Below, one piece after another: positions 47,015 through 51,273 of a stretch of DNA of 64,000 nucleotides; position 1 is the stretch's first letter; the number at the start of each line of letters is the position of its first letter. Source of the DNA: Bryobacterales bacterium (lineage in GTDB: Bacteria > Acidobacteriota > Terriglobia > Bryobacterales > UBA6623); contig JAJEHF010000104.1 in assembly GCA_022823865.1 (NCBI GenBank), forward strand, positions 1 to 64,000. The letters run 5' to 3'. The position numbers and the translations under genes are program-made. The notes under the pieces are model-generated. The model searched no databases, was not told where the DNA came from, and saw only the letters and a list, made by a program, of their open reading frames with translations.

Positions 47015-47497
47015 ATGTTTTGGGGCACGGAGACAGGCAGAGTCGACGCCAAGGGCCGGCTGAAGCTGTCGGCATCGGTGTATCGCAAGCTCAGGGAGCG
47101 CTGTGGCTCGGCCGAGCGCACGCCCGGTGCAGCGGCCGACACGGACGTCTTCGTCACAAGCCTGGACGGCGAGGAGATCAAGGTCTTTCCGTCCGAGGAG
47201 TGGGCCAAGATCCTGACGCAGCTGGCCTCGGGCGATGCCGCCACCGATGGACAAGCGAACAACAGGCTTCTGATGCAGGCAAACAACTACGGCAAGCCCG
47301 AGGATATCGATGGCCAAGGCCGGTTGCTGTTGCCCGCGGCACTGCGCGACGAGACGGATTTCACCGGCCCGGTCAAGATCCAATGGCGCAACCACCACTT
47401 GGTCGTGTGGCGCGAGGAGACCTTCAAGCAGCGCGTTGAGTCCAACAAGCCGACGGTGGACGACTTGGCCTACGGCGCGAACAAGTTGGGACTGTGA
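47015..47497 (+). CDS. mraZ: Transcriptional regulator MraZ
   Basis: 160 residues, two SpoVT/AbrB-like halves. The first has FWGTETGRVDAKGRLKLSASVYRKL; the second has EDIDGQGRLLLPAALRDETDF. The D.KGR and D.QGR signatures are both kept. MraZ forms rings that bind GTGG-type repeats and controls the mra/fts cluster. It is the first gene of the cluster. Its stop overlaps the start region of rsmH (GTG 47494 or ATG 47497). Confidence 0.95.
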   Translation: MFWGTETGRVDAKGRLKLSASVYRKLRERCGSAERTPGAAADTDVFVTSLDGEEIKVFPSEEWAKILTQLASGDAATDGQANNRLLMQANNYGKPEDIDGQGRLLLPAALRDETDFTGPVKIQWRNHHLVVWREETFKQRVESNKPTVDDLAYGANKLGL

Positions 47498-48402
47498 TGG
47501 AGGCAAGTCTCGGACACTACTCCGTGATGGCAGACGAGATGGAACGCTACCTGTTCGGCCAAGGCGACCCGATCCCGCGCGGAGTCTACTGCGATTGTAC
47601 TGCGGGGGCGGGCGGGCACGCGCGGCGCATCCTGCAACGCGCGGCCGGATGCACGCTGATCGCGATCGACCGGGACGAGGATGCCCTGCGGCGCTGCCGG
47701 ACGCAGCTGTCCGAGTTCGGCAGTCGGGTCCGGTACTTTCACGGCGGATTCTCCAAGCTGGCCCAAGCGGCCAAGGACTGCCTGCCGCTGGTCGGGGTCT
47801 TGGCGGATCTGGGCCTGTCGCGTCTGCAGCTCGACGACGGGCGCCGCGGCTTCAGCCTGCGGAACCCCGGCCCGCTGGACATGCGCTTCGACCGCCGCCA
47901 GGCGCTGCAAGCCGACGAGTTCGTCAATCGGGGCGGCGAAGGCGACCTGGCCGACACGCTGTACGGTCTGGCGGACGAGCGCTTCAGCCGCCGCATCGCC
48001 CGCGCTGTCGTCCGAGCGCGTCCGATTCGCGACACCGCACACCTGTCCGAAGTCGTCGCGGCGGCTGTGCCGCGCAGCGCAGCCGGGCGCATCCACCCCG
48101 CAACCAAGACTTTTCAGGCACTGCGCATGGCAGTGAACGACGAGCTTGGCGAGCTAGGCAAGCTGCTCGCCGAGGTTCCGCGCCTGCTCGCTCCGGGCGG
48201 ACGCTTCGTCGTGTTGAGCTTTCACAGCGGAGAAGACCGCTTGGTGAAGCAGAGTTTCCGGCAGCTTGCCAAGGCCGGAACATATCGCCTTCTGACGCGC
48301 CGGGTCATGCGCCCGTCCGAGGAAGAGGTGCGACGGAATCCAGCCAGCCGAAGCGCCCGCTTGCGAGCGGTGCAGCGCACGGAGATGGCGTATTCCGCCT
48401 AG
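47497..48402 (+). CDS. rsmH: 16S rRNA (cytosine-1402-N4)-methyltransferase
   Basis: 301 residues from ATG 47497 (GTG 47494 is also possible). Features: opening GHYSVMADEM, SAM motif YCDCTAGAGGHARRIL (about 32-47), the acidic AIDRDEDAL, the ADLGLSRLQLDD segment, the GPLDMRFDRR loop, ATKTFQALRMAVNDEL and VLSFHSGEDRLVK. The usual DGT of motif I reads DCT here. It methylates N4 of C1402 in 16S rRNA. The stop codon lies at the edge of the 34-bp duplication. Confidence 0.95.
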   Translation: MEASLGHYSVMADEMERYLFGQGDPIPRGVYCDCTAGAGGHARRILQRAAGCTLIAIDRDEDALRRCRTQLSEFGSRVRYFHGGFSKLAQAAKDCLPLVGVLADLGLSRLQLDDGRRGFSLRNPGPLDMRFDRRQALQADEFVNRGGEGDLADTLYGLADERFSRRIARAVVRARPIRDTAHLSEVVAAAVPRSAAGRIHPATKTFQALRMAVNDELGELGKLLAEVPRLLAPGGRFVVLSFHSGEDRLVKQSFRQLAKAGTYRLLTRRVMRPSEEEVRRNPASRSARLRAVQRTEMAYSA

Positions 48403-48466
48403 AGAGAGGATCGGTTAGCAATGGAGAAGGTACTAGAGAGAGGATCGGTTAGCAATGGAGAAGGTA
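48399..48466 (+). repeat. 34-bp exact tandem duplication over the ftsL start
   Basis: The units 48399-48432 and 48433-48466 are identical. Each contains the GAGAGAGGA ribosome site, an ATG and the first three sense codons after it; the first also holds the rsmH stop. Because 34 is not a multiple of three, the first ATG (48421) opens a 71-codon frame that ends at 48636, out of frame with ftsL, while the second ATG (48455) starts ftsL. Confidence 0.95.
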
Positions 48467-48994
48467 CTAACGAAGAAGGCGCCGCTGGGACGGCGATCCC
48501 ACCACGGCCGGTGTGGCGTGCCCAAGGAGCACGCCACGCCCAGCCCGTCCGCGCCCAGCGGCGCCACCCCGCCTGGAGGAGCTCAAGCGCAGTCGATGTC
48601 GATCGGCGGCGTGCCGCTGTATCCGAAGCGAATTGATAACAGCGGGATCCGCTACAGGCACGACCCGCGGGACCGGGAAGTCTGGCGCGTCGGCCTGAGC
48701 CTCGGCCTGTTCCTGCTGGTCCTGGCCATCTTGCTGTGGGGGCCGCAGCGATTGGTCACCCAGTCCGGCTACAGGCAGGAGGCGCTCCGCCAGCGGGCGG
48801 GACAGTTGCAGGCCGTGCGCGACGAGCTGAAGATGCAGCGCGGGCGGCTGGAGGACCTGCGGCGCGTCGCCGCGCTGGCCGAGCAGATGGGGCTGCGACA
48901 GACCGAGCCAGACAGTTATAGCTGGTTCGCGCTGCCGCCGGGAGACGGCGAGTCGGATGCGACCGTGGCGCGACTGCTGCGGTCAGGCGAGTGA
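48455..48994 (+). CDS. ftsL: FtsL-like division protein
   Basis: 179 residues from the second ATG of the duplicated start region. The N-terminal 75 residues are Pro/Ala-rich with a PLYPKRIDNSGIRYRHDPRD motif. One membrane helix follows (VGLSLGLFLLVLAILLWGP, about 81-99), then a coiled-coil with heptad pattern (about 105-150). Size, topology and position between rsmH and ftsI identify it as FtsL, although sequence identity in this family is low. It should bridge FtsQ/B and the FtsWI synthase in the inner membrane. An internal ATG at 48596 is a possible alternative start. Confidence 0.8.
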   Translation: MEKVLTKKAPLGRRSHHGRCGVPKEHATPSPSAPSGATPPGGAQAQSMSIGGVPLYPKRIDNSGIRYRHDPRDREVWRVGLSLGLFLLVLAILLWGPQRLVTQSGYRQEALRQRAGQLQAVRDELKMQRGRLEDLRRVAALAEQMGLRQTEPDSYSWFALPPGDGESDATVARLLRSGE

Positions 48995-49071
48995 CTTCTC
49001 GGCGAGGCTGCGGGATTCCAACGGTTCGGTCCGAGCGCTGGAGGCAATAGGGGGCAAGCAAAGAGCCGGCG

Positions 49072-51273
49072 GTGAACTTGATGGTCAGAGCGCAGTGGGC
49101 AGGCGGCGCTGCGGCGTCTGTAAGGCGGCTGCTCGGCTCGCGCACCAGGCGTCGCGTGCTGGCCGTGGCCTGCGTCGCGGCGGGAGCGTTCCTTCTCGTC
49201 CTCGCCCGGCTGGTCGACTTGCAGGTCCTCCAGCACGAACAACTCTACGCCAAGGCGATGCGCCAGCACGTCGGTAGCGTGGACATTCCCGCGCGCAGGG
49301 GGCATCTCATCGATCGCCGCGGGCGAGAGCTGGCCCTGAGCATGCAGATGGACTCCATCGGCATCTTCTCCGACCACGTGTCCGACCCACCGGCTGTGGC
49401 GGCCGCTCTGGCCGAGGCCGTCGCCGTGGACGAACACGCGCTGCGCAGGCGGATCGAGCGGGGCGGGTTCCAGTGGGTCAAGCGCACGGTCACCTTGGCC
49501 GAAGCGCAGCGCGCGCGAGCTCTGGGCCTGGACTTCCTGCAGTTCGAGCAAGAGAGCCGCCGCTACTATCCCTATGGCTCTGTGGCGGCCCAGGTGCTGG
49601 GCACCGTAGGCATCGACCACACGGGCCAAGCCGGCCTGGAGCAGAAGTTCGAGAGCCGATTGCACGGCACGCCGGGACGCGGCCTGATGCAATACGACGC
49701 TCTGCAGCGACGCTACGGCTGGCAAGTGCTGCAAGCGCCCAAGCCCGGCAGCGACGTGTTGCTCAACCTCGATCTGGAGTTGCAGTCACTGGCCGACCTG
49801 GAACTCGAGCGCGCCGTGCGCGAAACGAAGTCCCGGTCGGGAACGATCGTCCTGATGCGCCCTGACAGCGGGGAAATCCTCGCCATGGCCAGCTGGCCTC
49901 GGTTCGATCCCAACGATCTTTCGCGAACCAAGGAGGATCTCGAGAATCTACGTAACTTTGCGGTCAGTGCCATGGTCGAACCAGGGTCCACCTTCAAAGT
50001 CCTGACCGCGTCGGCGGCCTTGGAGGAGGGGTTGGTGAGCGTCGACGATGAGTTCGATTGCGAGATGGGTGGCATGTGGATCAACCGGCGGCGGATCCGC
50101 GACCACCACCCATACGGAATCCTGACGATGCCGCAGGTGCTGATGAAGTCGAGCAACATCGGCACGATCAAGATCGGCTACCGGGTCGGGTCGGAGAAGT
50201 TGCACGACTACATCCGGCGCTTCGGGTTCGGCGCCAAGACCGGCGTCAACCTCCCGGGCGAGATCCACGGGCTGGTCCGGCCGTTGGAGAGGTGGTCCGA
50301 TGCTTCGCTAGCGTCTCTCTCGATGGGACAGGAGATCGGCGTGACCGCCGTGCAGATGGCCGGCCTGTTCGGGACGATCGCCAACGGGGGAGTCCGGGTC
50401 AACCCCCGGATAGTCCGCGCGATTCGGGAGAGCGGCGCGCAGGAAGTGCCGCTAGACCGACCGGCGCCCGAGCGCGTGATCAGCCAGGACACCGCCGCGA
50501 CGATGCAGGCGATTCTGGAGCAGGTCGTCCAGAGCGGCACTGGCCGCCTCGCGCAGATCCAGGGCTATCGCGTGGCGGGCAAGACCGGCACGGCCCAAAT
50601 GATCAATCCGGTCAGCCGTTCGTACAGGGACGGCATGTACTTGGCCAGCTTCTGCGGCTTCGCGCCAGTCAACAATCCGGCCGTGGTGGGCGTGGTGATG
50701 CTGTTCGATCCGCGCGGCCAGTTCTACTACGGCGGACGAATCGCCGCGCCGGTGTTCTCGACCGTCGTGCGGCAGGCTCTGCGCGTCTTGGACGTGCCGC
50801 CGTCGCGGATCCCGTCGCTCCCCGTGCGCCCGCCGGCTGAGGTCGACGCGGTGCTGCTGGCGGACTTCATCGAGGGCAGGGCCAATGACGTCGGGGACGA
50901 GCCGATCTTTCCGGGCCGGAACGGCGCAGGGCCGGCGTCGGGGCCGGCAGGGCGGGAGGCTCCCGCTGCCGAAACTGTGGCCGAGGGCATGTCGCGCCAG
51001 GCAGAATCAGTCGCGACAGCGACTCTGGCTCAGGAGCCGTACGGCGAGTCGCTCACCGCTCCCGACGTGCTGGGGCTAACGATGCGCGAGGTGTTTGCGC
51101 TGGGAGCCCAGCACGGCATCCCGATCGAGCCGCACGGCAGCGGATTTGCCCAGCGGCAATACCCGGGACCCAACGAGGCCTTGCCCGCGGGCGATCCGAT
51201 CAAGGTCGTTTTCGGCACGGAGAGGGTTGAACTGCGCGACGCCTCACATCCGGCCGGCGAGGGTGGCGGATGA
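49072..51273 (+). CDS. ftsI: Division transpeptidase FtsI (PBP3) with C-terminal PASTA domain
   Basis: 733 residues from GTG 49072 (ATG 49081 is also possible). One membrane helix (RVLAVACVAAGAFLLVLARLVDLQVL) is followed by the PBP dimerisation domain (VDIPARRGHLIDRRGRELA). The transpeptidase motifs are SxxK = STFK (about 306), SxN = SSN (about 362) and KTG within VAGKTGTAQ (about 503). A single PASTA domain closes the protein (TAPDVLGLTMREVFALG to PAGDPIKVVF, about 660-718). It cross-links septal peptidoglycan. Its stop overlaps the murE ATG (ATGA). The Ala/Pro-rich linker before the PASTA domain is unusually long. Confidence 0.95.
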   Translation: MNLMVRAQWAGGAAASVRRLLGSRTRRRVLAVACVAAGAFLLVLARLVDLQVLQHEQLYAKAMRQHVGSVDIPARRGHLIDRRGRELALSMQMDSIGIFSDHVSDPPAVAAALAEAVAVDEHALRRRIERGGFQWVKRTVTLAEAQRARALGLDFLQFEQESRRYYPYGSVAAQVLGTVGIDHTGQAGLEQKFESRLHGTPGRGLMQYDALQRRYGWQVLQAPKPGSDVLLNLDLELQSLADLELERAVRETKSRSGTIVLMRPDSGEILAMASWPRFDPNDLSRTKEDLENLRNFAVSAMVEPGSTFKVLTASAALEEGLVSVDDEFDCEMGGMWINRRRIRDHHPYGILTMPQVLMKSSNIGTIKIGYRVGSEKLHDYIRRFGFGAKTGVNLPGEIHGLVRPLERWSDASLASLSMGQEIGVTAVQMAGLFGTIANGGVRVNPRIVRAIRESGAQEVPLDRPAPERVISQDTAATMQAILEQVVQSGTGRLAQIQGYRVAGKTGTAQMINPVSRSYRDGMYLASFCGFAPVNNPAVVGVVMLFDPRGQFYYGGRIAAPVFSTVVRQALRVLDVPPSRIPSLPVRPPAEVDAVLLADFIEGRANDVGDEPIFPGRNGAGPASGPAGREAPAAETVAEGMSRQAESVATATLAQEPYGESLTAPDVLGLTMREVFALGAQHGIPIEPHGSGFAQRQYPGPNEALPAGDPIKVVFGTERVELRDASHPAGEGGG

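Follow-up and report, generated by a model that had tools for sequence, protein, structure and literature searches.

A 34-bp tandem duplication over the ftsL translation start of a Bryobacterales genome and its predicted out-of-frame decoy start

The translation-start region of the ftsL-like gene in this Bryobacterales genome lies in an exact tandem duplication, and the locus as a whole is in our judgement quite probably explained by a lineage-specific slippage duplication that places an out-of-frame decoy start before ftsL, would cause a modest drop in FtsL and is most likely near-neutral or mildly harmful. Tandem Repeats Finder, run on the window (the whole stretch of 64,000 nt that was analysed), gave a period of 34 with 2.1 copies and 100% matches at 48399-48469, and direct string comparison showed that 48399-48432 is identical to 48433-48466. 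The array has a total length of 71 bp, made up of two 34-bp units and three extra matching bases, CTA (Table 1). Within each unit the layout is AGAGAGGA, then 10 bases, then ATG, and the rsmH stop TAG (48400-48402) falls within the first unit. The 27-base core of the unit occurs exactly twice in the window and was expected 0 times on the basis of shuffles, which together with the perfect matching led us to reject a chance origin of the repeat. The two identical 34-base units with a ribosome site and an ATG, described in an earlier note on this DNA, were thus recovered by both methods.

Table 1 Features at and around the duplicated ftsL start (window coordinates)
Feature	Position	Strand	Basis
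rsmH (mraW), 16S rRNA methyltransferase	47494..48402	+	PF01795, E 3e-86; TIGR00006 above cut-off
First 34-bp unit, with rsmH stop, SD-like AGAGAGGA and decoy ATG at 48421	48399..48432	+	
Decoy ORF, 71 codons, ATG start, in the rsmH frame and out of frame with ftsL	48421..48636	+	ORF list; no family match above cut-off
Second 34-bp unit, with FtsL ATG at 48455	48433..48466	+	
ftsL-like gene, 179 aa, ATG start, between rsmH and ftsI	48455..48994	+	Position, conservation, sub-cut-off FtsL profile matches
CTA, left over from 3-bp microhomology flanking the ancestral unit	48467..48469	+	CTA...CTA spacing in single-unit alleles
Downstream dcw-cluster gene for an ftsI-like PBP with a PASTA-like domain	49072..51273	+	PF00905, E 2e-74; PF03717

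The neighbours of the ftsL-like gene are mraZ, rsmH and an ftsI-type PBP, genes of the division and cell-wall cluster. FtsL was assigned from its position, its size and weak sub-threshold profile matches: the NCBIfam FtsL models scored 21.9 bits (cut-off 55) and 13.9 bits (cut-off 42.45), both below the cut-off, and a Pfam search of the 179-aa product gave no match. Family scores under the cut-off are usual for FtsL, which is a poorly conserved protein. In the FtsI-type PBP (49072-51273), the C-terminal PASTA-like match was just under the Pfam cut-off, and the best NCBIfam match was the SpoVD model, also under the cut-off of that model.

The MEKVL start of FtsL is conserved. The more distant congeners G003, G006 and G008 keep the AGGATCGGT motif, or one close to it, together with the ATGGAGAA start, and the FtsL start MEK is also present in them. 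Because both elements persist further into the genus, the second ATG can be taken as the genuine start of FtsL and the SD-like motif as conserved, and this conservation bears out the proposal that only the second ATG gives FtsL. An FtsL beginning at the first ATG was rejected because the frames differ, and an N-terminal in-frame extension of FtsL into the first unit was rejected because it is blocked by an in-frame TAG at 48434-48436, just 5' of the second ATG. FtsL is single copy, and no second ftsL that could relieve constraint was found in the genome. The gene is intact. It has a normal mix of 8 synonymous and 3 nonsynonymous changes on its own branch and of 7 and 2, respectively, on the branch of the nearest relative, G005; no excess of FtsL changes was seen on its own branch compared with the G005 branch, although most of its own branch may be older than the duplication.

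The nearest genomes were MAGs of Bryobacterales / Terriglobia (Acidobacteriota). Alignment across the whole junction showed a single unit at the same place in all five of the closest relatives (G005, G001, G009, G010 and G004), and their junctions were gap-free apart from the 34-bp difference, so the one-unit alleles that the earlier note had suggested looking for were found in every close relative. Against G005, the 34-bp insert is the sole indel in about 6.9 kb. The junction 34-mer occurs once in the own genome and was missing from 10 congeneric genomes even when up to 3 mismatches were allowed. The repeat was therefore rejected as a genus-wide regulatory feature, given one unit in the relatives and no junction in these congeners.

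In the single-unit alleles of G005 and the other relatives, the unit begins with CTA and CTA follows again 34 bp on. Because the ancestral unit sits between CTA triplets at this spacing, the simplest reading of the locus is a duplication by slippage on this lineage: replication slippage between the two triplets, which flank the ftsL translation-start region, would have produced the tandem duplication, and the comparison places the gain after the split from the nearest sampled relative. The microhomology itself is weak evidence of a slippage mechanism, being 3 bp long. An ancestral two-unit state that has since been lost by all relatives is formally possible, but it requires several losses, whereas a single event suffices if the unit was gained on this lineage.

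The duplication had been called very recent on account of the exact identity of the copies. Recency stands, but it is the single unit in the relatives that argues for it, and copy identity says little. The rsmH gene differs from that of G005 at 6 of 906 bases and at 2 of 186 fourfold sites, and two free 34-bp copies as old as the G005 split would be expected to show about 0.4 differences, with a probability of about 0.7 of showing none; exact identity is for this reason a poor clock. The same expectation calculated with the G001 split was about 2.8 differences between the copies, with a probability of 0.06 of none. Divergence from G005 is uneven along the region (mraZ 0/483, rsmH 0.7%, ftsL 4.2%, ftsI 1.4%, upstream 2.3%), so any clock taken from it is rough. 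The unevenness over 47015-51273 could be the trace of a recombined segment with one end near the duplication.

The frame opened by the first ATG was as had been described, with 71 codons at 48421-48636 overlapping ftsL out of frame, and the upstream copy is out of frame since 34 is not divisible by 3. The locus thus carries an upstream ATG with a predicted ribosome site, in another frame, which overlaps the ftsL start. The decoy ATG lies 18 nt past the rsmH stop, the same spacing as that of the FtsL ATG in the relatives, and the true FtsL ATG now lies 52 nt past it. Predicted pairing with the 16S tail was identical for both ATGs, at -10.6 kcal/mol, and random 20-mers of the window had a median of -4.5 and a fifth percentile of -9.8 kcal/mol, all calculated with the standard bacterial 16S tail, which may not be that of this genome. 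Predicted RNA accessibility of the two starts was about equal (0.57-0.59), and folding favours neither of them. Close relatives with one unit have the FtsL ATG in the rsmH frame, and readthrough of the stop would give an RsmH-FtsL fusion there; this possible fusion is abolished by the duplication.

Under these predictions, ribosomes that end rsmH or load at the first site would partly start on the decoy ATG, read past the FtsL start and terminate about 180 nt into ftsL, a distance over which ordinary reinitiation would not be expected to reach back to the FtsL start. FtsL is presumably still produced from its own unchanged start site, and the competition would give a modest drop in its output. 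Decoy initiation in the wrong frame with some loss of FtsL is plausible. The effect of the decoy on FtsL may nevertheless be small, nil or positive, and a positive effect is conceivable because decoy translation could hold the FtsL start unfolded. The duplication is most likely near-neutral or mildly harmful, and the repeat itself can lose a unit again.

The first alternative concerns the data, namely that the organism carries one unit only and that the second was added during library preparation or, as the earlier note had allowed, during assembly. The window lies on one of the 231 contigs of a draft genome, the duplication is known from this single assembly, and a chimeric read could possibly have given the two-unit junction. 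However, at only 71 bp the array is within the length of ordinary short reads, and no k-mer assembler can make the junction unless it is present in reads; on this anatomy an artefact of assembly alone is unlikely, with flanks that are otherwise collinear with the relatives. A base-rate scan for exact tandem duplications with a period of 15-200, made in stretches over 1.29 Mb of the own genome, found 2 of them, and at so low a rate there is no systematic artefact. Perfect tandem arrays are rare in this genome, though the type itself is common, and the array at the ftsL start is the sole one with a period of at least 20 in the 1.29 Mb. The other is a 17-bp duplication, TTCGTTATGAGACTGAT, at L207 8244-8277 on contig C105. 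We consider an artefact of either kind unlikely, and the duplication is probably a real mutation.

If the mutation is real, it could still have been selected, either as a tuning step or as a reversible switch that lowers FtsL and is toggled by unit gain and loss. The repeat lies exactly on the translation start, its unit length shifts the frame, and such repeats can lose a unit by deletion (PMC8378479); deletion of tandem repeats by RecA-independent template switching was shown for 101-bp repeats (PMC8378479). But the relatives lack the repeat, hence no repeat tract is maintained; there are just two copies and no tract of short units, phase variation is unlikely to target an essential division gene, and the substitution pattern of FtsL shows no alteration. 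No repeat tract of variable copy number was found in the related genomes, and the phase-variable-like role that had been suggested gained no evidence from the five relatives with one unit or the 10 congeners without the junction. Apart from tandem repeats being generally unstable (PMC8378479), nothing here supports phase variation, and adaptive tuning or switching appears very unlikely. That the duplication has been selected to act as a reversible brake on assembly of the divisome, with unit gain and loss by slippage setting FtsL by diverting rsmH-terminating ribosomes to the decoy, is highly improbable. The 71-codon ORF might also be a functional leader peptide or small protein, with a good predicted ribosome site and a frame that is open throughout. 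But its product has no family match above the cut-off in Pfam or NCBIfam, relatives without its start codon already have 38-61 open codons in this frame, and over much of the neighbouring genes a shifted frame runs for 60 codons without a stop. Because of these open frames in neighbours and relatives, the length of the decoy ORF can be ascribed to base composition, and a functional product is scarcely credible. A lineage-specific duplication with a predicted competing start is the reading that we retain.

The locus offers a clean natural case of a small duplication that copies the translation start of a cell-division gene, and it could be used to test start-site competition. It is also a warning, since gene callers may annotate a wrong ftsL start or a false small ORF there. 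Apart from the copying of the start site, it is ordinary genome variation of a known kind. A literature search for a direct precedent at ftsL found none, and three known systems can be compared with it. Duplications by microhomology slippage or template switching resemble it in the two perfect head-to-tail copies, the CTA at either end of the ancestral unit and the single-unit form in all close relatives, and nothing here is distinctive except the position on a translation start. Like out-of-frame upstream decoy ORFs, the locus has an SD-ATG in another frame that overlaps ftsL to about 180 nt past its start, but here it is a perfect duplicate of the start region of ftsL itself and its effect is predicted. 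As in short-sequence-repeat contingency loci, the number of repeat copies alters the frame that is read first, but the locus differs from them in having a 34-bp unit in two copies that is missing from relatives, and in affecting a housekeeping division gene whose FtsL start is intact in both states.
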